Below, in pieces: positions 5,845 to 64,000 of a stretch of 64,000 nucleotides of DNA. Within the stretch, counting starts at the first letter, position 1. The number at the start of each line of letters is the position of its first letter. The DNA is taken from positions 25,825,666 to 25,889,665 of the forward strand of contig OX485807.1 in the NCBI GenBank assembly GCA_950295325.1, read 5' to 3'. Position numbers and translations under genes: made by a program. A model generated the notes under the pieces. That model had not been told where the DNA came from. It saw only the letters and a list, made by a program, of their open reading frames with translations, and did no database searches. This DNA comes from Polytrichum commune (lineage: Eukaryota; Streptophyta; Polytrichopsida; Polytrichales; Polytrichaceae).

Positions 5845-6655
5845 TTAGATGTAGGTATGACTAGATCTACGGCAGAGAATGCTTGGTGGTTGAAAGGGGT
5901 AGTCCCCTGAAGGGATCGCAAAAAATCCCTTCTTATTCTTTTCTTTACAACAAAAATGCGCAATGTGGCTTGGTTTGGAGCGATGAAAACACAATCTTGT
6001 ACTTTGGCGCAAAAATGAGTTGTCACTTTTGTTTTGTCGTATCACCATGGCGGCATCATCACCTTGGGGGTTTTTCTTCTTGTGTTTCAACATCTCGTGT
6101 ATAAAATGCGTTGTCACATAGTTCATCGTAAGTACCTTGATCGGCATTGTCTCCAAGTTAGTAATAAGATATTTGTACGACGTTGATAAGTTCTCAAACA
6201 AAGTTATAACAATATCTTTGTCTCTCACATGTACCCAAAAATAAATGAGCTGATATGTGAGTGCCTTGACCTTGTTGATGTGGTCCAACAAGTCATCGTC
6301 TTCTTGCACCCTACACGTGAAGAGCTTGCAGCAAATGAAAAATGTTAGACAAACTCTTTATTTTGTGAATATTGCAAAAGGTCTTCCACACCTCCGTAGG
6401 TCCTTTACAACTCTTGATGTACGCAAGTTGGTTGTCCGCCAATTTAAGGTTGATGATAGATATGGCCTTCTTGATGTGCCTTTGGTACTCTTCATTGACG
6501 TTGGGATCCGCATTGGAAGACGAAGCTTCCTCAAATCCGTCTACAATGTCCTAAAGATCCATGTATGGCAACAACATTTCGATTTTGAACTTCCAAAGGT
6601 TAAAGTTTTCTTCCCTGAATTTGTCAATGACTCTAGCAGCCTTGTTCTTGAATGA
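5845..6655 (-). pseudogene. gag: Ty1/copia gag polyprotein remnant
   Basis: Gag is the structural protein that forms the virus-like particle of copia retrotransposons. Reading the minus strand from about 6655 gives the N-terminal part with NFNLWKFKIEMLL and an LADNQLAYIKSCKGP-like helix. A frameshift near 6310 follows. From 6309 a second frame carries the conserved block LLDHINKVKALTYQL and FENLSTSYKYLITNLE. The zinc knuckle is damaged: it starts CFHRSKPSHIAHFC, with Arg where the second Cys of C-x2-C-x4-H-x4-C should be. A TAG lies near the start (around 6560) where a Trp of ..MDLWDIVDG.. type is expected. No protease, integrase or RT follows, so this is an isolated gag fragment. Family assignment is confident; the element is dead. 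Confidence 0.75.
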
Positions 6656-18252: not shown

Positions 18253-18280
18253 ATACCACTACAGTACATTACATGATCTA

Positions 18281-19195
18281 TATGTTTCCTTCCAAACTGG
18301 AGCTTTACAAATTGTTAAGTTTGGTTCGTTTCCTTTCATTTCCGTTTACATCATCATGGCTCGGCGGCAACTTCAATGCGTGCACACTTAGTGTAGCCAA
18401 TGGGACTCAAGTGTTAATGTACTCATGAGGTAACCGATTTAGGCGATGGTTTGTATGGAAATGTAGAGTACTGTGTTTGGTGCAGGGAGAATCTAGTGAA
18501 CGAGTAGGGGGTTGGGCAAACTTTCCACTTTGAAATATTGTGAAATTTTTCCTGGAACAAGGCAGCCAAATAATGAAACAACTTGCATTGTTCATGAATC
18601 CTTCTCGTCTATCTTGGAAAATTATCTCATGACTGTCAGACCAGATCTTCAATGCAAATCACCTTATTTTCACGGGTTATGGTATTTCTACCTCACATTC
18701 CGTGATGTATATATGTGTCTCCTTCCAAACCGGAGCTTTATGAATTGTTACGTTGGGTTCGTTTCCTTTCATTTCCGTTTACTGCATCATGGCTCGGCGG
18801 CAACTTCAATGCGTGCACACTTAGTGTAGCCAATGGGACTCAAGTGTTAATGTACTCATGAGGTAACCGATTTAGGCAATGTTCTGTATGGAAATACAGA
18901 GTACCGTGTTCGGTGCAGGGAGAATCTAGTGAACGAATAGGAGGTTGGACAAACTTTCCACTTTGAAATATTGTGAAATTTTTCCTAGTACAAGGCAGCC
19001 AAATAATGAAACAACTTGCATTCTTCACGAATCCTTCTCGTCTATCTTGGAAAATGATCTCATGACTGTCCGACCAGATCTTCAATGCAAATCACCTTAT
19101 TTTCACACGGGTTATGGTATTTCTACCTCACATTCTGTGATGTATATATGTGTCTCCTTCCAAACCGGAGCTTTATGAATTGTTACGTTGGGTTC
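18281..19195. repeat. 433-bp tandem repeat, about 2.2 copies
   Basis: A partial unit (18281-18413) is followed by two nearly identical units beginning TTAATGTACTCATGAGGTAA at 18414 and 18847. The second full unit runs into the CTTTC microsatellite at 19195. Mutually matching open frames on both strands inside the units are a consequence of the duplication. Nothing in them looks like a conserved protein. Confidence 0.9.
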
Positions 19196-19240
19196 TTTCC
19201 TTTCCTTTCCTTTCCTTTCCTTTCCTTTCCTTTCCTTTCT
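19195..19240. repeat. (CTTTC)n microsatellite
   Basis: About nine TTTCC/CTTTC pentamers in tandem, directly at the end of the 433-bp repeat, apparently grown from its TTTCCTTTCATTTCC motif. Confidence 0.95.
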
Positions 19241-21767: not shown

Positions 21768-22022
21768 AAGGGCCACTTCACACACGAGACTGACAGCCCT
21801 TGACCATGACACTTCAAACACTCTCATTGGTGGAAAAGGCGGAGCCGGTCCAAGTTCACTTCACATTACACTTGAAAGACCAACGGAAGCATGTGAATGC
21901 AAGGTGAATGTAGAGTCTACATGGATTCTTACATGGCATGGAATGGATCATGTTTCATGGTCACTTGGACTGTTTTCAAAAACCACCTCTTGGAGGTAGG
22001 CCTAACACAAAACCAGGAGACC
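21768..22022. repeat. Dispersed repeat B, copy 1
   Basis: Collinear with 58722-58950. Shared blocks include AGGGCYACTTCACACA, GGTCCAAGTT, GATCATGTTTCATGGTCACT, TTGGAGGTA and ACAAAACCAGGAGACC. Both copies end at the same GGAGACC. Class unknown; no coding capacity. Confidence 0.75.
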
Positions 22023-37585: not shown

Positions 37586-38124
37586 CTCCAAGTTTTGGGA
37601 CTTGAAAGATGATGCTATGCATTAGAATTGTTAGTTAGAAATTGTGATTGGGATGTCACATTGAGTCACGGTCAAGGGAAGTGCTAACTTACAGGGGGAA
37701 GCGATTGCTTAAGGTACGACGACTTCTTCAAAGTGAAATTGTTAATTAATTAATTAATGATTTTAGTACTCGTCTTTATCGTTATCCGTTGTAGAGGGTA
37801 ATTCCCTAGTCATAGCATTGTGTTGAAGACAAGAGGATGATGCCTCGGTCTTTAATATGGTGCATGACGAAGGTCAGCCCCTCACTCTCGGTATTGTGGT
37901 GAGTGTCAATTTGAGGAATGACATGGAGGTGATTCTCCGACTTGACTAAGAATTGACATGAATATGCCTATTCCTATTTGGGATTTTTCACTTAAGTGGG
38001 CTTGCAGGTTTTTTTTCCTCACCTCCATAATTTTTAAGTTACACCAAGGAAAATGATAACATTAAAGAAGGAAGTCGGTGAGGAGTGTGTTTGGTTAAGT
38101 AAGGGTTGATCGATTCTTTATGGA

Positions 38125-41100
38125 ATGCAAGGTAAAACTCGATCCCAAAAACCAAGCTTGACTCTAGGATTAGAAAAATCGACGCGTAAGAGGAGATCAT
38201 CTAGGATTAGCGAAGGGTTAGAAGAAGTTGATGTTAGAATAGAAAGTTGTTTGAATGTCGAGCCTTGTATTAGATCATTGTTAGATACATTAGAATCGGA
38301 GGCTCAACTTGAGAAAGATGCAACTCCTTCCAAGTTGAATGGTGAGACTTCATCGGAAAATTGTATACTTAGGAAAAAAATTCTGATAAACGTTGATAGG
38401 GGGTTACAAGGGAGCGCACCGGTTACCATGGATCCAGATCGAGGGATGGATCCACCACCTATACCTCCTATGCCACCCATTGATCCATTGGTTAGGCCGA
38501 GAGGCTTACCAATCGTGGTTCCACAAAACTTACAATCGGTGGACATGCCTTCCCACCTCCCTAAGTTTTATGGAACTAAGGATGAGGATCCTTCTAGGCA
38601 TATGGAGAGATACATGGAGAGGTTAGCTAGTTCACTCGTGACTAATCCGGGGTATTGGCTAGTATGGTTCCCCACCACTTTAGAGGGTGAGGCTTATGAG
38701 TGGTATAGGGATCATGCCGAGGGACATTTTAGAGGATGGGACCAATTACAAAGGGAGTTTTTGAACGAGTTCCGTCCGGAGGTTGGTCAAAACACAGCTT
38801 TGAGGGCATTAGCTTCATTGAAGCAAGGTAGGGAAGAGGAGATTTCGGCTTACATTAGGAGATTTGATTTAGTGTGTACACGATTTGTGGGCACCATGCT
38901 TAACGATGACACGCTAAAGTAATTCTTCATTCAAGGGTTCTTTAAGTCGGGAACAATTAGGGGTGTTATTGAGAGAAATTCTCACACATTGGCGGATGCC
39001 AAGCGGGCGGCTAGAGAGATAGAGAGTTTGGATAAAAATCACGAGAGGTTGTGGAGAATGGAAGATGAATTGATACCTCAATTCATTCCCATTCGACCTA
39101 GGGTGGTCACGGGAGAACCGGTCAAGTATGAGAGTCAAATTCCTTATGCTATGGTCGAGACGGGTCCACATCCTTTAGCGGTTAGAGAACCGGCACCACT
39201 TCTAGCATTACCGGCCCCTAGAGCGGATCCTCACCTTGAGGAAGTGGAGAGAAGGTTGGGTGTTAGTCAATTGGGATTTCAAGAGGCGATGATCAAGCAA
39301 ATGTAAAGCCTGACGGATCAAATGTCGTTAATGATTAAGAATCAACAACCGGGACCTCCTCCCCCAATTGAGTCGGGTAGACATTCATCGGGTTTATGGT
39401 GTGTGCAATGTGGCCAACCGGGCCACACTCGTCAATTTTGTAAAAGTGGACAAAACTATGATCAACGAAAAAACGGTGGTCCACCTCCACAAAATCAACG
39501 AGGCCAAACACAACCTCAATATGGTCAAGGAAACAATAGGGGTCCTCCTCCTAGGGGTCAAGGTGGTCAAAACAATGAGAAGAAGGAGTTCCATTTATTT
39601 TGTGGAAGGTGGCATGTCCAAGGTCAATGTTGGTGCGAAGGGCAAGGTTATGGTTGTAGTAATTGTGACGGAAGTCGTCCTTCGGACGAATATCGTCAAC
39701 CGGACAAGGTTATTAGTGTACCTTATCCGGTGGCCAATCCACAAAAACAAGCGCGAGACAACATGAGGGGAGCTAGACCACAAGGTGGACCACCGAATGA
39801 TCTTAGGCCACCGAATTTGTACTATGACCATGGTAATGAAAGACAAACGTTTCATCCACCGGCGGGATTACAAACGTCGAACGGGTACATTCCGATTCAA
39901 GGTAGACAAGGAGGTCCACAAAACTTTGACAATAGGCGCCAAGCCCCTCCTACGGATCCGGGTCCGTCTAATTCTTAAGACGTTAGATTTATGGATGGTG
40001 TGATGGATGCTCATTATGATGACACGCTTCCTCTCCCGATGGGGATTGGAGAGGAACAAGGTCAATGGCCTCCACACACCAATACCATCACCTATGAGTT
40101 GAGGAATCTAGATGATGAGGTCATTCATGAGGCACCGGCTTTGGCGGTCACAACCAGGGCTATGAGGGAGAAAAATCCATTAGAGGTAGGAGTGGAGGGT
40201 CAAGAGGAATATTCTTCAGACGAAGGCATTAACATTTCCGAATTGAACAAGGTGGCTAGAGTGGCTAGGAGGGTCACTAAAGAGTTGATAAAAAAGAATG
40301 TGATTCTCTATGATAGGGAGAGACCTAATGTCGTTCATGATTTAGAGGGTAGTGATATGGGAGAATGTGAAGGACCGGAAATTCTTTTGAGTGAATTTGA
40401 TGGTGTCGGCAATGCCAAAGTGGAGAAGTCAAGTGTGTATGATTTATGGGCCGACCTTAGTTCGCTCAAGGCGGACATAACCTTTGGACAACTATTGGAG
40501 ATTTCACCTGTCGCACAGAAGACTCTCAAGGACGGCATGCCGGTGAATAGAAGAACTAGGAAGGTGAAAACTAGAATTGCCGCTAGAATTCAATCACAAG
40601 GAGGTCGCGATGTGAAGGCTATAGAAATAGAGGTCATCATATTGGACAAGATGGTTCCCAATGTGCTAGTGGATGGAGGTAGTAGTTTGAACATCTTGCC
40701 GGAATACACTATGAGAAAATTGGGTCTTGGTCTTACGGGTCCTTCACCTTTGATTATAAACATGGCAAATCAAAGCTCAACCACACCTTTGGAAATGATT
40801 AAGGATTGTAGGATGACCACCGGGGGAGAGGAGTATTTAGTCACTTTTCATGTGATTAAGATGCATTCCAACAAGGACATTTTCCCCATCTTGTTGAGAA
40901 TGGCGGACGCCATAGTAGATTGGGGAGGGGCGAAGCCATCCATTACTTATGGTCCTAAGGATAATCGAGTCATAGTGTCAATTGGGTCATTAGGAGGGTG
41001 GATGAAGAAGGAATTGTACCTACCATTGGAGGAGGAAGGTGTTGACAAAGCCAAGGATGAGAGAGGGGAGGCTCTAGTGGGAGTTGTTCATCTCAAACCC

Positions 41101-41193
41101 CGTACTACATCTCATCGCAAAACCCCTAAATCTAATGAGTATTCAATACCACCACCTAGCATGGTGTGGTTTGCCTACTTACTTATTAACTAA
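38125..41193 (+). pseudogene. gag-pro: Gypsy-type gag-protease polyprotein with three in-frame stops
   Basis: One frame runs 3.07 kb with no frameshift, broken by TAA at 38920-38922, 39304-39306 and 39976-39978. Order: basic N-terminus; a Pro-rich linker; retrotransposon gag core (HLPKFYGTKDEDPSRHMERY, EAYEWYRDHAEG, ALASLKQGREEEISAYIRRF); a zinc knuckle CVQCGQPGHTRQFC (C-x2-C-x4-H-x4-C, near 39403); a long Gly/Gln/Pro-rich region; and an aspartic protease with VLVDGGSSLNILP as the active-site loop (near 40666). The protease C-terminal motif, normally LLGRPWL-like, reads FPILLRMADAI. About five residues appear deleted, so the enzyme is probably dead even without the stops. The third stop might be a natural gag/pol boundary. 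Family call is firm; activity is not expected. Confidence 0.8.
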
Positions 41194-53920: not shown

Positions 53921-53921
53921 G

Positions 53922-54530
53922 AATGTATTAAGTGTCATTGATTTGTCTCAAAAATATGTGTTGGAATTTTTTATAAATCTGATGTGTATGGGGGGGGTCT
54001 CGGAACCGAGAGGGGGGGTTTTGTACTTTGGATGTACTTGAGAGAACCAAATGTATTAAGTGTCATTGATTTGTCTCAAAAATATGTGTTGGAATTTTTT
54101 ATAAATCTGGTATGTGGGGGGGTATCGGAACCGAGAGGTGGGGGGGTTTCTAGTTTGGATGTACTTGAGAGAACCGAATGTATTAAGTGTCATTGATTTG
54201 TCTCAAAAATATGTGTTGGAATTTTTTATAAATCTGGTATGTGGGGGGGTCTCGGAACCGAGAGGGGGGGTTTCTAGTTTGGATGTACTTGAAAGAACCG
54301 AATATATTAAGTGTCATTGATTTGTCTCAAAAATATGTGTTGGAATTTTTTATAAATCTGCTATGTGGGGGGGGTCTCGTAACCGAGAAGGAGGGGAGTT
54401 TCTAGTTTGTTTGTGTTTGCTATCACCTAAGGCATTGAGTGACTTTGATTTAAGCTTCAAAAAATGTTTTTGGAAATTTGTTGAAATTTGGTATGTGGGG
54501 GGGGTCTTGGAATCGAGGGGGGGTTAGTTT
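53922..54530. repeat. Tandem array, 124-128-bp units with a short palindrome
   Basis: Units start with AATGTATTAAGTGTCATTGA at 53922, 54050 and 54177, and as AATATATTAAG at 54301. A degenerate fifth follows. Each contains a G-run, then TCTCGGAACCGAGA (a 6-bp-arm hairpin), then another G-run and TTTGGATGTACTTGAGAGAA. G-run length varies between units. Confidence 0.9.
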
Positions 54531-54904
54531 AGTTGAACTTTGGGGAAGGTTTGGTAGTTAGTGACCTTGCTTTCTCACTACCTAGGCTACGTAGTTTGTG
54601 GTCATGGCACCAGATTTTGCATGTGCCATCATTGTCATACTTTTTAAGATTGCATCCCCCACTCAAGTTAAGATTCACCCCATTGATGTAGGGCAATTCA
54701 ATCCAATATTAACTCCATGATGTTTGCCTCCACGTGCACCCTTTTCACATTCGACGACTTTCTATCCCAAATGCTATATAACAAATGCAAATCTTGGTTA
54801 GGCCTCTCTTGGCCACATTTGACAAAGGTTGCATTCTTGAGTTGAGGTGTGTCTCTCATGTTTCGGCCCCTCTCACCACATTTTGGTGTTTTGTTTGTTT
54901 GATC

Positions 54905-55335
54905 ATGTGTGTAATCTAAGGGTGTAATTCTTATAGGTTTGAGGATTCGACCCTTCACACCAGATTCTCATCTTCCTTTGTGATTGACAATGTATGTAAT
55001 CTAAGGGTGTAATTCTTATAGGCTTGAGGATTCAGCCCCTCACACCAGATTCTCCTCTTGTTGTGTTTGACAATGTGTGTAATCTAAGGGTGTAATTCTT
55101 ATAGGCTTGAGGATTCAGCCCCTCACACCAGATTCTCCTCTTGTTGTGTTTGACAATGTGTATAATCTAAGGGTCTAATTCTAATGGGCTTGAGGATTCG
55201 GCCCTCACACCAGATTCTCCTCTTGTTTTGTGTTTGACAATGTGTGTAATCTAAGGGTCTAATTCTAATGGGCTTGAGGTTTCGGCCCCCACACTAGATT
55301 CTCATTTTGTTTTGTGTTTGACAATGTGTGTAATG
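54905..55335. repeat. 83-85-bp tandem array upstream of ORF A
   Basis: GTAATCTAAG recurs at 54911, 54996, 55079, 55162 (variant) and 55246, with a truncated unit at 55330. Units also share GGCTTGAGGATTC.GCCC and CACACCAGATTCTC. The array ends about 25 bp before the ATG of the adjacent ORF. Confidence 0.9.
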
Positions 55336-55360
55336 GGGAAGATCGCGCTAATCTGACTTG

Positions 55361-55861
55361 ATGGCGCCTCTTGCATTGTATTTGGACGAAGATGTACAGT
55401 TGAGGGTTTTGGTCCCAAACTTGTTGGTGGGTGCCGTAAATGTGGATATGGGTGCAGAGACGTCATTGGACACCCAACTCCGTTTCTTGCTTATCCATAG
55501 TTTGAGGCTATTTTGTAAAGCATGGAAAATGATTGTGGATAAAAGTGCGGAGTATAATGCTCTTCGTTTGGCTCAATATGAATACGCGATGGGTCCCAAT
55601 GATTTCCCAAGGGTTTGTTTGCCATGCGAACATAACCTCGTCACTCAATTTCAACAAAACTTGATGTGGTTCTCACATAGCCGCCACGTTAGCACATGGA
55701 TTTCGCGGAGGATTCTTATGTCCGACTTGGAGGATTTGTCATTGCGTTCATTGGCTAAGCTAAGGGATGAATTGGAGAGCTGCTGGTGTGCGGTGGAGAT
55801 GTATGGCATGATCTTTGAATCATTTTATCCATATTGGACATGCCCGGCCGATAGGGTGTAG
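55361..55861 (+). CDS. Unrecognised 166-aa protein, paralogue A
   Basis: The frame runs ATG (55361) to TAG. The start was chosen because the paralogue at 57954-58454 has its ATG at the aligned position. The two proteins are the same length with no gaps and about 37 differences by eye, roughly 78% identity. Conserved landmarks are LVPNLLVGA, VDMGAET.LDTQLR, LLIHSLRL.CK.WKM.VDK, NLMWFSHSRHVS, ISRRILMSDL, LAKLRDELE and PYWTCPADRV at the C-terminus. The CKAWK..VDKSAEYNALRLA helix vaguely recalls the region after plant F-boxes, but no F-box is demonstrable. No signal peptide or membrane segment. It is preceded by an 84-bp array. Homology continues about 130 bp past the stop. Function unknown. Confidence 0.5.
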   Translation: MAPLALYLDEDVQLRVLVPNLLVGAVNVDMGAETSLDTQLRFLLIHSLRLFCKAWKMIVDKSAEYNALRLAQYEYAMGPNDFPRVCLPCEHNLVTQFQQNLMWFSHSRHVSTWISRRILMSDLEDLSLRSLAKLRDELESCWCAVEMYGMIFESFYPYWTCPADRV

Positions 55862-56745
55862 ATGGAAATAAAGTATATTAATCTGTATATAGCTACTTGA
55901 ACTTAATACACATTTTTGTAAGTCTTGAGGTTGGCACCTAACTTCACATACATTTTGTCGGCCAATAAAATATTTTGTGTATGGTATTTTGATTTCAATT
56001 GGTGACGTCAGCCTTAATTTAATATGAAACATTTGAAACCTAGACTATAAGATGTTTGAGGACAAATGCAATCTTCCACGCCTATAGGATCCGTTGGTTT
56101 CTCGAACAATTATGGGTTATTATGTCCACAGGAATGGGGTGCCTTTCCAACAAATTGAATTCAAACTATCTCTAATTCCACGGAAATAGGCGTTGCTTCT
56201 CCTAAAATTACCCAACAAAATCTAAATTTTTCGCTCTCCAATTTCCGCTCTCCGCTCTACGCTCACACTACTAAGTTTCCCACCAGGGCGAGGATAGTGA
56301 TACACATGGTAGTCCAAGTTGTTGACTACGCCTCGTGCGTTTGGAACCTCCATCTCCTATGTATTCTTTATGTTTAAGTTTTTATAATTTCATTTGTTGA
56401 TTTTCCATGTGCCTTTTGCAAACCACATTCAACTCCTCCTTCATCTTATGTTGTAGTTTGATTTCAATTGCTCTTGAAGGTTGACAGCTTGTATTTGTAC
56501 ATATGTTCAACTAGTTGGTTGATAGGTTCAACTAGCTTGTTTTTTGGTTGGAATTTGACCCTCTCGGTTCCGAGAGACTGAGGGTCTTAGTGTAGGAATC
56601 AAGAACGAGATTTAAAATAGGTTCGGGTGGATGGGGTTGTATCTTTTTTGGTTGGGTTCATATTTCTTATGTTAAGGTGTTGGGCAATGTAGGGACCCTC
56701 TCGTAGGGACAACTTTGAATCATAAGATGAATGTTTGTGTTTTTT
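55862..56745. other. 3' flank of paralogue A and spacer
   Basis: The first ~130 bp (ACACATTTTTGTAAGTCTTG, TTGGCACCTAA, CGGCCAAT.AAATATTTTGTG) is conserved with the 3' flank of paralogue B, consistent with a shared UTR. CTCTCGGTTCCGAGAG at 56561-56576 is a hairpin related to that in the 53.9-kb array. No other gene seen. Confidence 0.6.
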
Positions 56746-56751
56746 TGGATG

Positions 56752-57905
56752 CTCTCACTTCGGAAGTGAGACTAGATGTGTAGGCCAGATTCTCAACTTT
56801 GATTCATGTCATGAATGTTTGTGTGTTTTTGGATGCTCTCACTTCGGAAGTGGGTCTAGATGGGTAGGCCAGATTCTCAACTTTCATTCATGTGATGAAT
56901 GTTTGTGGTTTATTGGATGCTCTCACTTCGGAAGTGAGACTAGATGTGTAGGCCAGATTCTCAACTTTGATTCGTAGGTTGAATTTTTGTGTTTTTTTGT
57001 TGGCTCTCACTTCGGAAGTGAGACTAGATGTGTAGGCCAGATTCTGAAGTTTGATTCATATGTTAAATTTTTGTGTTTTTTTGTTGGTTCTCACTTCGGA
57101 AGTGAGACTAGATGTGTAGGCTAGATTATCAAGTTTGATTCATATGTTGAATTTTTGTGTTTTTTTGTTGGCTCTCACTTCGGAAGTGGGTCTAGATGGG
57201 TAGGCCAGATTCTCAACTTTCATTCATGTGATGAATGTTTGTGGTTTATTGGATGCTCTCACTTCGGAAGTGAGACTAGATGTGTAGGCCAGATTCTCAA
57301 CTTTGATTCGTAGGTTGAATTTTTGTGTTTTTTTGTTGGCTCTCACTTCGGAAGTGAGACTAGATGTGTAGGCCAAATTCTGAAGTTTGATTCATATGTT
57401 AATTTTTTGTGTTTTTTTGTTGGCTCTCACTTCGGAAGTGAGACTAGATGTGTAGGCTAGATTATCAAGTTTGATTCATATGTTGAATTTTTGTGTTTTT
57501 TTGTTGGCTCTCACTTCGGAAGTGAGACTAGATGTGTAGGCTACATTCTCAACTTTGATTCGTGTGATGAATGTTTGTGTGTTTTTGGATGCTCTCACTT
57601 CGGAAGTGGGTCTAGATGGGTAGGCCAGAGTCTCAACTTTCATTCATATGATGAGTGTTTGTGGTTTTTTGGATGCTCTCACTTCCAAGAGACTATGTGC
57701 GTAGGCCAGAGTCTCAACTTTCATTCATATGATGAATGTTTGTGGTTTTTTGGATGCTCTCACTTCCAAGAGACTATATGCATAGGCCAGAGTCTCAACT
57801 TTCATTCATATGATGAATCTTTGTGGTTTATTGGATGCTCTCACTTCCAAGAGACTATATGCGTAGGCTAGATTCTCAACTTTCATTCATATGATGAATG
57901 TTTGT
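56752..57905. repeat. 84-bp tandem array with hairpins, 4-unit higher-order structure
   Basis: CTCTCAC (one TTCTCAC variant) recurs at exactly 84-bp steps: 56752, 56836, 56920, 57004, 57088, 57172, 57256, 57340, 57424, 57508, 57592, 57676. It continues at 81-bp steps (57757, 57838). Most units carry TCTCACTTCGGAAGTGAGA, a 9-bp-arm hairpin. Some have GTGGGTC instead, and the last three units have lost the hairpin through a 3-bp shortening. Variants cycle in a four-unit pattern, so 56836-57171 and 57172-57507 are near-identical 336-bp repeats. The array ends about 50 bp before the ATG of paralogue B. Confidence 0.95.
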
Positions 57906-57953
57906 GGTTTGGATGACGTATCAGGGTGGGGAAAATCGTGCCAATCCCACGTA

Positions 57954-58454
57954 ATGGAGCCACTTGTATTGTATTTGGACAAAGATGTACAATTGACGGT
58001 CTTGGTTCCAAACTTGTTGGTGGGTGCCGCAAAGGTGGATATGGGTGCAGAGACGACATTGGACACCCAACTCCGTTTGTTGCTAATCCATAGTTTGAGG
58101 CTATCTTGCAAAACATGGAAAATGACTGTGGATAAAAATGCGGAGTTCAATGCTCTTCATTTGGCTCAATATGCATACGCGATGGGTCTCAATGCTGTCA
58201 TAAGGGTTTGTTTGTCACGTGAACATAACCTCATCACTCAATTTCAACTAAACTTGATGTGGTTCTCACATAGCCGCCACGTCAGCTCACGGATTTCGCG
58301 GAGGATTCTTATGTCGGACTTGGGGGATTTAAAATTGCGGAAATTGGCTAAGCTAAGGGATGAATTGGAGATGTCATTCTGTGCAGTGGAGTTCTATGGC
58401 ATGAGCTTTCATCAAGGTGCACCGTATTGGACATGCCCGGCCGATAGGGTGTAG
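57954..58454 (+). CDS. Unrecognised 166-aa protein, paralogue B
   Basis: It aligns end to end without gaps to the protein at 55361-55861 and ends with the same PYWTCPADRV. An in-frame ATG further upstream (57891) lies in the tandem array and is not shared by the paralogue, so I start at 57954. Divergence is concentrated near residues 79-89 and 140-155; the NLMWFSHSRHVS, ISRRILMSDL and LVPNLLVGA blocks are kept. The frame is intact, unlike nearly all other coding material in the window. It has the same array-then-ORF-then-conserved-3'-flank layout as A, so the whole module was duplicated. No known family recognised. Confidence 0.5.
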   Translation: MEPLVLYLDKDVQLTVLVPNLLVGAAKVDMGAETTLDTQLRLLLIHSLRLSCKTWKMTVDKNAEFNALHLAQYAYAMGLNAVIRVCLSREHNLITQFQLNLMWFSHSRHVSSRISRRILMSDLGDLKLRKLAKLRDELEMSFCAVEFYGMSFHQGAPYWTCPADRV

Positions 58455-58721
58455 ATACGTGGAAGAGCCAAATGGATTTTTTTGCGCACACCTTTTTTAT
58501 TATTATTCTGGAGTAAACTGTTTATAGCAAATTGAACTGGATACACATTTTTGTAAGTCTTGATTTTGGCACCTAATTTCACCTACATTATCTCGGCCAA
58601 TCAAATATTTTGTGTATGGGAATTCTGGACATCTAAGAGTTCTTGGAAAGAGTACCGTAGCTACTTGGGGCAATGTATCACTTTCTGGAAATCATTTAAG
58701 TGCACTTAAGTACATTTAAGG
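58455..58721. other. 3' flank of paralogue B
   Basis: Carries the same conserved blocks as the flank of paralogue A (ACACATTTTTGTAAGTCTTG at about 58541, CGGCCAAT.AAATATTTTGTG), after a ~60-bp insertion containing a T run. No coding sequence. Confidence 0.6.
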
Positions 58722-58950: not shown

Positions 58951-59204
58951 TACTAATATATATAATGGCCAGATAGATAGAAACTCCGGTCCCTTTTAGG
59001 GGCCGGCGTGAATAGAGTGTCCGTTCGTAATGCCAACAACCCGATGCCCACAGGACATGGGGAAGCTGGGACAAAACTACTCTCCTCTTTCGAGGATGGA
59101 CACTATAGTAACCAAGAAACAAATAACGTGGGCCGATCATGGCCCACGGCGGTGCATGCCTTTTAGGTATAATTAGTGTTTTTGTTATGAGAGTGAACGC
59201 CAAG

Positions 59205-59340
59205 TCATGATTCCTCGGTTGGTTGTGGGAGGATGTTTGAGTTAAGACGTTCCGGGTTCGATTTCAGTCGAGTCTGTATGATCGTCTAAAATGTAACGCG
59301 TGACTTGGTGCTGCAAGTGAATAAAAGGCAGGAAATTTGT
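59205..59340 (+). repeat. tRNA-derived SINE-like fragment
   Basis: TTGGTTGTGGGAGG (59219-59232, A-box-like) and GGTTCGATTTC (59255-59265, B-box) are spaced as in a tRNA. A short body ends in AATAAAAGGCAGG. It lies just past the 3' end of the LINE-like element, in opposite orientation. Confidence 0.4.
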
Positions 59341-59413
59341 ACCAACCAACCGGCACCAATCCCTCATTCTGAGCTGTAAATAGATACTAAATATTATATA
59401 AGTTCTTTGGGTT

Positions 59414-62400
59414 TTATGGAGGGTCTAAGTTTTGGGGGAGCGGTTGGTGGTTTTCAATTCTCCTCTTATGGAGGAGGATGGACATGGCATATTGTATTGC
59501 AATGGTATTAATGTTTTTAAAGGTATTTTTGATGGTAACCAGGGGTATTTTGAGATTTTCTTCTAGTATTTTCATAGATGGGATGTGGGCCGTAGCTCGG
59601 GCCCCAACTGTGATGACAATAAGTGGTTCGATTTTCCATCCTTTGGAAGCGATACTATCAATCAAAGGTTTGTATTTGTTGTTTTTTGCTTCTATTGTTT
59701 CTGGGAAAAATCTGTCGTTACAATATGTGAATTCAATAAATTGTATGGTGAGGTTAGGGTCAATGTCAATGGGAGGGTCATTTTGATATGGTAATCCTTT
59801 AACGCAAAGTATATCAGGTCGAAATCTTGCGTTGCAATGACATCTTTGTGTGTTACATGTGCAGGGGAGTAGCCAATTGGGGACTGTATTTTCTTGGGGG
59901 TTATTATTGAAGGTACCGGCATTCATGAGAGTAAAACATTGGGATTTTTCGGACGAGATTAGAAGCTTCCTAATTTCTCCGACTGCTTTGTTATGTCTTT
60001 TAATTCGTAATGAGTGTATATGTTGTTGGTTGCATTTCAGTAGAACATGTAGCCAAGTGTCTGGATCGTTTGAATTGCATATAGGGCATGTGATAGAGGG
60101 GTACCTCTGGTGACCGAAGAACATTTGTTTTCTAGCATTACCCATGTATGTTCCTGTGCGGAATTTAATAAGGCAAGATTTTTGTTTGTCTGTGATTAAG
60201 GGATTTGTCCAGAATTCGTTAGACAGTTCTTTGTCAATGTCTATATTTTCTGTCCATTTACACGTGTTGGGGGTTTGTGTGGCCATGATTGCTATATTGG
60301 TTTCCCTATCATATTTTTTAATTTGTTTTTCTAAGAATCTTACTGGGCCTTTGTCTGGGACGTCTGCCATCGAGGCCCAGACGTCCTTTTGGTAATAGTA
60401 CGGGATGGCGTGGGCATGTTCGTATGGGTGGATGGCAATTCTGTGTTCTAATTCTAACCCGTCTTTTGCTAGTTTATCCGCTTTTTCATTACCGTCAATG
60501 TTGACGTGTGCTCTGACTTTGTATAGTGTGATTGGCTGTGTACGGTCTTGGAGGATTTTTACCATGGAGTTGAGTGTGGTTTGGTCGGGGTGACTATTAT
60601 GGAGAGTGGGGTGTTTAATTTGTGTGTTGAGTAGGTATAATACATTTAGACTGTCTGTGAATATGAATGCGGGTTCATTAGGGAATTTTGTATTGATGAT
60701 TCTTAGTGTTTTGTGTATAGCCATCATTTCTGCACGTAGTATGTTTTGATGCCCATGGAGTCTTTTGGCGATATTTAAGCCTTTGGGGCTATAGATACCG
60801 TATCCAGCTCTTTCTCTTCTCCATACCCTAGGGGCAATTTCTTTGGGTTTTATAAAGGAACCATCCGTGTAGTAGCTGAACTGGGGGTGAAATTTTAGCG
60901 GTAGATTAGTGTGGTAGTTTGGAAGTTGTGGGGTAGGGGTATTATTGTATGGGATTGTATTTGGGTAGTTTGATTTGGCCCATTTTTTACTAGGGTTAAC
61001 GGTGATGTTTGGAGGGGTGGGTGGTGCAGTTTGTGTGTGACTTTGTAGTATCTGGAGGTTATTTGCTGTGTCGTTTATTAATTTCATTTGTTCGTAGGTG
61101 CCAATGTTATTGTTTTGGTGATGGATACAAAATATTTGCATGGTAGATGGTTCTTTTCTTGTGATATTGAGCTCAGGGGGTATTGTGGGTTCCTCATACG
61201 TGATCGTATCAGCGGCGAAATGGGCAATGACGTGTATGTCTGGGAATGGGCCTGTGTGTGGGTTGGAGTTTTGGTACCAATTAATATCCGGAGATATAAG
61301 TATAGTGATTGTATATGGATCATTTTGGGCCGCTATGCGCGCCCAGTGAATAGCTTGTTGTAGGTCTGTTGTATTATGAGGGTATGCGTAACCGATTCCT
61401 TGCCATTTATGGTCAAACACTTTACCTAGGGATCCTAATATTATGTCTCGCGAGAATGGTGAGTAGAATTGGGTGAATTGTGTGGGGCATGTAACTGGGG
61501 ATGAAAAATATGAGTGGTTAATATTGAATGTTGTAATCAGGAGATCTAATATTTGGGTTGGTATTGTATATTGGGCTCGTTTGAGTGGGTCATTTTTTGG
61601 GATACGGTATTTGTACCTTTGGTATAACCAAACAATTTCAGTTTCGAACGATTGGGTAGATGGTTCTAGACCGTGTGTGTTGTTTTTTGCCAATTGGTAT
61701 TGTTTCCATAGCCATGTTAGTCTAGCTTTCGGGATGGTAATGAGGTGTCGGCCATTGTCTTCGTATATGTGAGCGACATCGAATTGTGTTTGGATGGTAT
61801 CAAAGTTTGTTTCGATGTCGTTTTCTGGGTTGCATTCATTAATAGAGATATATGCTAGTGGAATTATTGTGGTTGGTGTGACGTATCTTGTGTCTCTATG
61901 TTGTTCTGTGGAGAAGTAGGCATTAATTATGTTTGAAAAATGTTTGTGTTGTCTTTCTTTGTAGTAATGGATAAGTAGGTCTGTGTTGTGATTACATGTG
62001 TTGGCTTCACAGTAGGGGTATAGGTCCCTTTGAGTTCGCCATTTGTTATATGTGTTGTTATTTGTTGTAGTCCATTGACATAAGTACGACGTGACTGTTC
62101 TTTTTATTCCGTTATGGTCATTGGATTGTTTTTGTTTATGATCGATTATTTTGTATATGGGGAATTGTCGGGGGTCTTTAAGCATGTTATTGGGAGGAGG
62201 GGGGTGTACGGGGGCGGTTGGTGGGTGTGGTAGGATATTGTGGTGTCTTATTATATATTTATTTTTTAGGGATCTTGGTGGATGGTGTTGTTGGCATGGT
62301 AGGGGGAATTGATTACAAGGGGGGTGGCAAAATAATTGATTAGCTATGTTAAGTGCGCTTTTTATAAGTTTAGAAGGAGTGGAGTGGTAGATTTTGAATT

Positions 62401-64000
62401 CGTCCGGGTTCATTAGAGTGGTACCATTAGGCATGGTAATTTGGTCTAGTGTGATTATATTATGTACAAGTAGTTTGTGTAGTAATTTAAGTGAGGTGTT
62501 GGAATTTAGGCCATGAAGCATTTGTGTTTCCTGCATCCATGCAGTTTCAAGTGGGGATGGGGTTAGTAGGAAATTGTTTATTGTATTTTTTAGGTGGACT
62601 CCGGCTTTATGTTTGAGCAAGAATAATGTTCTAGTGATGGGTGATCTAACACAGTGGTGGTATTTAATGTGGGTGATTTCCTTAGAGCCCCCATATTTGG
62701 CGAGTATGAATTGAAGTAGACCAACATATATTTTTCCAATTCTACCTTTATCATTGAGGGCGTTTTGTAGTTGTTCTCCAATGCATCTTAAATAGGCATT
62801 TTGTAGTGAGAATGCTTCGATTCCGAATAGATTGTGTGGGAGTTGTGTAGCAATGTTAGATGTGCATTTGGATATTCTGCATATCGTTTTGTAAAGTGCT
62901 ATGATTTTTTTATCGAGTTTTTTTGATAGCTGGTATGGAGTATGGCACTGCGTAGAAGCTGTATGCTATTCCAGCACGTATGACTGTATCTGTCATGTTT
63001 ATTTTTTGTTTCATAGTAGCTGGGCATGTTACAAGGGCTTGACACTGTTTTATTACTTTAGCTGTAGTGGTATGTATTTGTGTTTTCCATTTGAGTGATG
63101 GTGCAAGATTTATTCCTAGATACATGTATGGTTCATGTTGGTTTAAGACTGGTATAGGTTGGTTTCTGTAGTTGATATTGGTAGATTGGATTAGGGCTTT
63201 AAAGGTTGTGGGGTGAAGTTTGGATTTGTTTAGGCATCCAGTTATTGCGCACTTGGGTATTCCAAGATCCATTCCTGGCCATTCGCAGAATTTGTCTAGT
63301 TTGTTGAGTTGTGTTTGTAGTGTCTTTAGTTTATTGGCGACTGCTGCTAGGTCATCTGCATATGCTGTTGATGAGATTTTAATTTTAGATGTACCAAAAA
63401 TGTATCCATTATTCCCTTGTTGTAGCCATCTGAGGAGGGGTTCTAGGAATATGATAAATAGATATGGGCTAAGGGTATCATCTTGTATTGTATCTCTTTG
63501 AATGGGGATTGGTAAGGTTTTACCGAAGTGTTCACCAGTGAATATTGTTGAGGATTGTAAATATATGTTTCCTATGAAATTTATGGAGTCAGTGGGATAT
63601 CCCAGATCTTTCATTATGGCTAAAAGTCTGGCGTGATCAATGGAGCCGAAGGCGTTTTTGAAGTCAATATAAAAGATATATATATATCTTGGTTCGTGAG
63701 TCTTGCGTCTTCAAGCGCTGCGATTAATAATTGGATTTGTCTAGAAATGCTTCTCTCTGCTCTAAACCCTTCTTGACTATCGTGTAATATTTGGTATTTT
63801 TCTCCATACGCTGATAGGATAGAAGTTAATGTATTCGTGTAGAATTTATATATGGTGTTAGCTAGTGCAATAGGTCTATGATTTGTTAGTTGTGATGGGT
63901 TACCTTTTTTGTATAGTAAAACTGTTAGACTGGTTTTCCATGATGCAGGGATTTGTTTTTGTTTATAACAATGTTTAAAAAATAAGAAGAATAATTTATG
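59414..64000 (-). pseudogene. LINE-like retrotransposon ORF: RT, RNase H, CCHC finger, restriction-like endonuclease
   Basis: One polyprotein enters from beyond 64000 and ends at 59414. RT: WKTSLTVLLYKKGNPSQLTN near 63950, HDSQEGFRAERSI, motif A FYIDFKNAFGSIDH near 63670, motif C YADD at 63362-63351. Motif B is damaged: QDDTLSP at 63485-63465, where QGDTLSP-like sequence is usual. RNase H spans about 60880-60450 with all acidic residues (YTDGS, RAEMM, FTDS, NEKADKLAKDG). A finger CPICN...H...C lies near 60090-60034. The C-terminus matches restriction-like endonucleases of R2-type LINEs: RPDILCVKG near 59820, then FIEFTYCND and KNNKYKPLI. Frameshifts sit in an A7 tract (62918-62924) and a TA repeat (about 63670-63690); otherwise the frame is open for more than 1,400 codons. 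Protein is Asn/Ile/Thr-rich, unlike neighbouring elements. The 5' half is outside the window. Confidence 0.8.
62918..62924 (-). other. Frameshift in a homopolymer of the LINE ORF
   Basis: The RT frame (63614 downwards) hits a stop at 62910, immediately after a seven-A run on the minus strand. Dropping one A continues smoothly into the frame that reads on to 59414 (KKLDKKIIALYKTI). Either a one-base insertion or a homopolymer sequencing error. Confidence 0.85.

Follow-up and report, generated by a model that had tools for sequence, protein, structure and literature searches.

A LINE with predicted reverse transcriptase, PCIF1-like, RNase H and R2-like endonuclease domains

In the long interspersed nuclear elements (LINEs) of the R2 type, a nick made by a restriction-like endonuclease (RLE) primes first-strand synthesis by the reverse transcriptase (RT), a process called target-primed reverse transcription, and the element RNA is held by its folded 3′ end. 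We know of no methyltransferase-like domain in R2. In the extracts of the literature on which our comparison draws, Dualen/RandI elements encode both an apurinic/apyrimidinic endonuclease (APE) and a PD-(D/E)XK endonuclease (PMC3636483) and are among the LINE clades listed with RNase H, a list in which R2 does not appear (PMC4640811). One survey gives Dualen for green algae only (PMC4438587, Table 3), and it is further described from Chlamydomonas and its relatives (PMC8226300) and from cryptophytes (PMC12747079). An RNase H upstream of the RT is given as unique to oomycete Utopia, in which it is of the arginine type and for which a separate gain of RNase H has been proposed (PMC4640811). Archaeal-like RNase H has an arginine where the fungal and metazoan type has a histidine, and in LINEs with the other RNase H a finger lies downstream of it (PMC5348765). 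Here we describe a LINE at the right edge of a 64,000-nucleotide stretch of contig OX485807.1 (the window), which appears to join a domain related to an RNA-cap methyltransferase to an RT, an RNase H and an R2-like RLE.

The element lies on the minus strand, where it is read from 64000 to 59417 and ends with a stop codon at 59416-59414; the window edge truncates it inside the RT. Three consecutive minus-strand frames cover it, namely 64000-63623 (P0003), 63710-62913 (P0002) and 62965-59417 (P0001, 1183 amino acids). The last of these has no stop in 1183 codons, against about 62 expected from its own base composition, and the other two frames of the same strand contain 54 and 93 stops. After a linker, P0001 holds everything that follows the RT, so that in the sequence the domain order of the element is RT, PCIF1/CAPAM-type methyltransferase-like domain, RNase H, CCHC finger and R2-like RLE. 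Also evident from the sequence are active-site residues of RT and RNase H, the R2-like signs (finger, RHN, PD and K..KY) and a degenerate motif in the methyltransferase-like domain. We consider it probable that these parts belong to one damaged copy of a non-LTR (long terminal repeat) retrotransposon of this composition, probably followed by a structured 3′ untranslated region (UTR). The sequence-only reading had proposed a LINE that joins an RT with YADD, an RNase H with its full acidic set, a CCHC-type finger after it and a C-terminal RLE, and the YADD, the PF00075 match, the finger and a score against an R2-RLE profile were all found. Its further interpretation, a Dualen-like or new clade in a land plant with target specificity set by the RLE, has partial support: the architecture is closest to Dualen/RandI, a land-plant host is a possibility, and target specificity would be a prediction for an element seen in one copy with its 5′ junction beyond the window. 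That account had left the strand unstated and noted neither the PCIF1-like domain nor that the reading frame is broken twice.

The PCIF1/CAPAM-type domain is placed at 61016-61714 (minus strand), of which 61394-61684 is matched by Pfam; the remaining extent follows an end-to-end alignment. Residues 428-524 of P0001 match PF12237 (PCIF1_WW) with an E-value of 1.1e-9 in the whole protein and of 1.5e-10 and 9.5e-11 in isolated pieces, and the scores (38.6, 41.4 and 42 bits) lie above the Pfam cut-off of 31.1 bits. Searched alone, the two halves of the domain remained under the cut-off (E 0.02 and 0.017), in the correct order. PF12237 was matched in neither of two control sequences, the reversed and the shuffled stretch, when these were compared with Pfam. 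The family name is a misnomer, as PF12237 is not a WW domain but a CAPAM-like methyltransferase (PMC7641849, in the part consulted). We built a separate profile from two PDB chains, 6irv and 6irx, which we take to be human and zebrafish PCIF1. It scored 12.9 bits against residues 406-660 (9.8 bits with the whole protein as target) with a local match from residue 464 to about 537, and the best shuffle scored 8.7 bits (2634 scored of 5000 made). The corresponding hhalign comparison gave an E-value of 0.00093 for a single comparison.

The helical part and the start of the methyltransferase core align with PCIF1, as do a GS.G motif and the position of ANPPF. At this position hmmsearch, hhalign and MAFFT agree in placing AYPHN (residues 527-531; 61373-61387, minus strand) opposite the ANPPF of the PCIF1 chains. 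NPPF is catalytic in PCIF1. It is absent from the LINE domain, which by this alignment reads YPHN there and which, unlike PCIF1/CAPAM, sits inside a retrotransposon protein. Because YPHN stands where PCIF1 has NPPF, the domain has probably lost its enzymatic activity and been retained for binding RNA or its cap, and no methylation by this copy is expected. The domain might instead be catalytic in its family, methylating the cap-adjacent adenosine of the element RNA, with YPHN as decay of this copy alone. The similarity to PCIF1, the two frame breaks and the odd RT motifs described below would agree with this, but changing between YPHN and NPPF takes at least four base changes in four codons, and yet the 1183-codon frame is free of stops. 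Taken together, these two observations speak for an older change in the lineage, and we regard a catalytic family with a decayed copy as unlikely.

The domain upstream is an RT split over two frames. P0003, which runs off the window (63623-64000, minus strand), matches positions 3-68 of the PF00078 profile with an E-value of 3.5e-4 and 20.8 bits, under the Pfam cut-off of 29.6. P0002 (62913-63710, minus strand) carries the palm and the part that follows it and matches positions 64-204 of the same profile above the cut-off (E 9e-17). Because the two frames match consecutive parts of PF00078, we regard them as a single RT domain interrupted by a break of frame. The aspartate of motif A is present in P0002, and YADD lies at 63362-63351 (minus strand). 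With R2 and L1 chains of the PDB as the references, the best match of the palm was R2 9nl2 (E 8e-16, 61 bits), followed by 9nl3, 9dou, 8gh6 and 8ibw, and L1 ORF2p (8c8j) ranked after these R2 chains (E 1.6e-6, 31 bits).

Downstream of the PCIF1-like domain, PF00075 covers residues 697-837 (60455-60877, minus strand) with an E-value of 4.6e-13, above the Pfam cut-off, and the RNase H1 8swb was a PDB match of this region (E 3.3e-4). By eye the active-site residues are D701, E746, D771, H820 and D830, a full D-E-D-H-D set. The RNase H thus lies downstream of the RT and is of the histidine type (H820), not the archaeal-like arginine type. The element matches the pattern given for LINEs with the other RNase H, in having the histidine and in having the finger downstream of the RNase H. 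This finger (60032-60088, minus strand), read from the translation, is C960-x2-C963-x9-H973-x4-C978, and its HVLLKC aligns with HIIGNC and HILQQC of R2.

We take the C-terminal region to be an R2-like RLE on the strength of motifs, profile and alignment. The motif RIKRHN, common to R2, follows the finger at 59990-60007 (minus strand; hmmsearch and MAFFT with R2 chains). The RLE region proper has approximate outer limits of 59486-59842 (minus strand) and includes CHC-x4-RPD, FIEFTY, AKNNKY and VGARA; a second cysteine group, CTCNTQRCHC, spans residues 1035-1044, RPD residues 1049-1051, FIEFTY 1076-1081 and KNNKYK 1094-1099. No Pfam model matches the region, and phmmer against the PDB gave nothing useful. 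We built a profile from the RLEs of three R2 chains (8gh6, 9nl3 and 9nl2), which had been retrieved with an R2 sequence as bait. It scored 14.6 bits against residues 946-1183 (9.4 bits with the whole protein as target), and the best shuffle reached 5.0 bits (1229 of 2000 shuffles received a score); hhalign gave an E-value of 0.0024 for a single comparison. The aligned pairs of the LINE and R2 are HVLLKC/HIIGNC, RIKRHN/RIKRHN, RPDI/KPDI, AKNNKY/EKRNKY and VGARA/LGARG. The aspartate aligned to RPD differs between deposited R2 constructs, since chain 8ibw has KPA where 8gh6 has KPD. The joint pattern H-x4-C, RxRHN, PD, E.T and K..KY occurred in none of 200,000 shuffles of residues 946-1183 and the shorter pattern PD..E.T..K..KY in 2 of 100,000, both patterns having been composed after the sequence was viewed. 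The profile score and the shuffles sustain the earlier reading of RPD...FIEFTY...K..KY as an R2-type RLE, except that the acid of FIEFTY receives no support from the aligners.

Several observations weigh against this interpretation of the element. Both profile assignments have low hhalign probabilities (22.5% for the PCIF1 part and 12% for the RLE). The PF12237 match breaks off directly before the catalytic motif (profile position 105 of 176). The remainder of the domain, as far as about residue 650, is aligned by MAFFT alone, whose alignments by design run over the full length. The 135-residue methyltransferase core of PCIF1 alone scored 3.8 bits, no better than chance, as 13 of 1418 scored shuffles reached at least that value. 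In the RLE, the R2 profile matched in two parts only, from the finger to RHN with 9.8 bits and from K..KY onward with 2.4 bits. In both the hhalign and the MAFFT alignment the second aspartate of R2 faces DID (1067-1069), and FIEFTY falls into an insertion, with E1078 unaligned; E1078 as an active-site acid accordingly rests on a motif read by eye. The RT reads AFGS in motif A and QDDTLSP in the following motif, against AFD and QGDP in the three R2 chains, so that this copy or its lineage may be impaired. A single copy of the LINE was seen, and its frame is broken twice, once within the RT and once after it. No relatives were found in scans of viral contigs and genome contigs or in phages by tblastn. 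Finally, two single-sequence AlphaFold models were unusable (mean predicted local distance difference test scores of 34 and 35), and Foldseek with both of these low-confidence models gave no match at E 0.001 among the best 50 of 278 and the best 50 of 546, a result to which we gave no weight.

The frame breaks may be either mutations or sequencing errors. The frame overlaps hold simple runs: the first contains (TA)5, the second a run of seven A, with another A run at its edge. One viral-contig scan used an alignment of the RT palm of the window with three R2 chains. When the window was compared with itself, P0001 and P0002, the two frames used in this comparison, had no second place at E 1, and NCBIfam returned only matches under its cut-offs.

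The 463 nucleotides after the stop codon (58951-59413, minus strand) are probably the 3′ UTR. On the LINE-sense strand this stretch folds with a z-score of −4.38 (none of 100 shuffles as good), compared with −1.57 on the opposite strand (6 of 100 shuffles as good). Its far edge coincides with the start of a repeat that is also present at 21848-22022, and it is from this edge that the exact end of the UTR is deduced. On the opposite strand, at 59190-59310 (plus strand), visual inspection suggested a B box of the tRNA type (GGGTTCGATTTC) and perhaps an A box, so that this stretch may be a short interspersed nuclear element (SINE). ARAGORN and Rfam, which found nothing overall, gave no tRNA at this place.

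We compared the element with the described LINEs. Similarity to R2 extends over the RT palm (E 8e-16 to 9nl2), the H-x4-C end of the finger, RxRHN, K/RPD and K..KY, but membership of the R2 clade is ruled out because the LINE carries an RNase H (PF00075, E 4.6e-13), a domain for which R2 is not listed in the extract of PMC4640811. The oomycete families of Utopia likewise have an RLE plus an RNase H; in the extract on Utopia, however, the RNase H precedes the RT and has the arginine, whereas that of the window LINE lies downstream and has H820, which rules out identity with oomycete Utopia. In joining an R2-like RLE to an RNase H of the histidine type downstream of the RT, the element comes closest, among described architectures, to Dualen/RandI, whose APE would be positioned beyond the window edge. 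RT, RNase H and RLE occur in one element in both. Among the features of Dualen/RandI, the LINE has the RLE (motifs and R2 profile) and the RNase H (PF00075); the APE that defines the group would be encoded past the end of the window, which falls in the RT, and the portions of the Dualen descriptions compared name no PCIF1-like domain. We give about even chances to a true Dualen/RandI element with its APE beyond the right edge, in which case the PCIF1-like domain would be either general in Dualen but unreported or specific to a branch. The two endonucleases of Dualen (PMC3636483) and its listing with RNase H (PMC4640811) argue for this, together with the position and histidine of the RNase H, unlike Utopia, and an RT palm that scores R2 chains above L1 chains. 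No APE is visible within the window, however, and the hosts in the extracts are green algae (PMC4438587, PMC8226300) and cryptophytes (PMC12747079). A literature search gave no report of Dualen in land plants among the matches listed, in the parts of the sources that were available, and a mention in Kojima and Fujiwara 2005 is possible.

A rather doubtful alternative to Dualen/RandI is a separate RLE clade without APE, which would have gained RNase H and the PCIF1-like domain independently, as oomycete Utopia gained its RNase H. An independent gain has been proposed there (PMC4640811, in extract), and RT and RLE are both R2-like here, but the upstream arginine-type RNase H of Utopia, against the downstream histidine type of the window LINE, means that such a clade would not be Utopia itself. 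We hold it very improbable that the element is an ordinary L1 or I-clade LINE with an RLE-like C-terminus by chance. The C-terminus is without a Pfam match, its hhalign probability is low and the R2 profile matched parts only; on the other hand, the full RLE motif occurred in 0 of 200,000 shuffles, RIKRHN and H-x4-C are common to R2, and the RT palm is nearer to R2 than to L1. Equally improbable are nested or misassembled pieces of different elements. The two breaks of frame, within the RT and behind it, might suggest them, but the PCIF1-like domain, RNase H, finger and RLE lie in one unbroken 1183-residue frame, and a single Pfam profile runs on from the first RT frame into the second. A chance RLE, an L1 or I-clade origin and a chimaera are thus all unlikely.

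The combination of RT, RNase H and RLE is rare, and the predicted addition of a domain related to an RNA-cap methyltransferase is without LINE precedent in the searches made, as far as the retrieved parts of the literature extend. Among the matches listed, in the extracts available, none reported a retroelement with a PCIF1-like domain, and a mention in Kojima and Fujiwara 2005 or in Iyer 2016 is possible.

Relatives of the PCIF1-like domain act on the capped 5′ end of mRNA. We tentatively propose, as less likely than not, that RLE-type LINEs of one lineage acquired a PCIF1/CAPAM cap methyltransferase from a host. Its catalytic function lost, the domain would have persisted between RT and RNase H as a fixed module for reading caps, with which the element would check or hold the capped 5′ terminus of its own RNA while target-primed reverse transcription proceeds. 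By analogy with R2, the RLE would nick the target DNA, the RT would prime the first strand on the nick, and the folded 3′ end of the element RNA would hold the template for the RT. RNase H would then clear the RNA template, permitting second-strand synthesis. The methyltransferase-like domain, probably devoid of catalysis, may bind the element RNA at its capped 5′ end. It might thereby either keep full-length RNA with its protein or bring in the 5′ end for synthesis of the second strand, and full-length copies would be favoured if the 5′ end is held. To our knowledge, how LINEs choose full-length RNA and complete the 5′ junction is an open question, to which a cap-methyltransferase relative in a LINE protein would, if true, be a direct and testable answer. 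RNA-cap enzymes would then join the domains captured by retrotransposons, and if the host is a land plant, a Dualen-like architecture would reach from algae to plants.

The window also contains other mobile-element fragments and repeats. A copia-type gag fragment lies at 5848-6357 (minus strand; PF14223, E 4.2e-9). At 38110-41190 (plus strand), a Ty3-type gag (PF03732, E 4.6e-11) is followed by a frame in which a CCHC-like finger can be discerned by eye, and the last frame has a sub-threshold match to an aspartic protease (PF13650, E 0.022). Both gags are compatible with a plant host, which they do not prove. A search of the window for the methionine-tRNA primer site that plant LTR elements usually carry was negative. 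Tandem arrays occur at 53921-54523 (127-base unit), 54887-55334 (83-base unit) and 56710-57910 (84-base unit, 14.4 copies). The segments 55334-55984 and 57927-58619 are a direct duplication with two aligned pieces, 87.0% and 87.7% identical, and each copy has an open frame of 169-195 amino acids with no Pfam match above the cut-off. Further left, a tandem duplication at 18279-19239 (433-base unit, 2.2 copies, 94% matches) is followed by (CTTTC)9.

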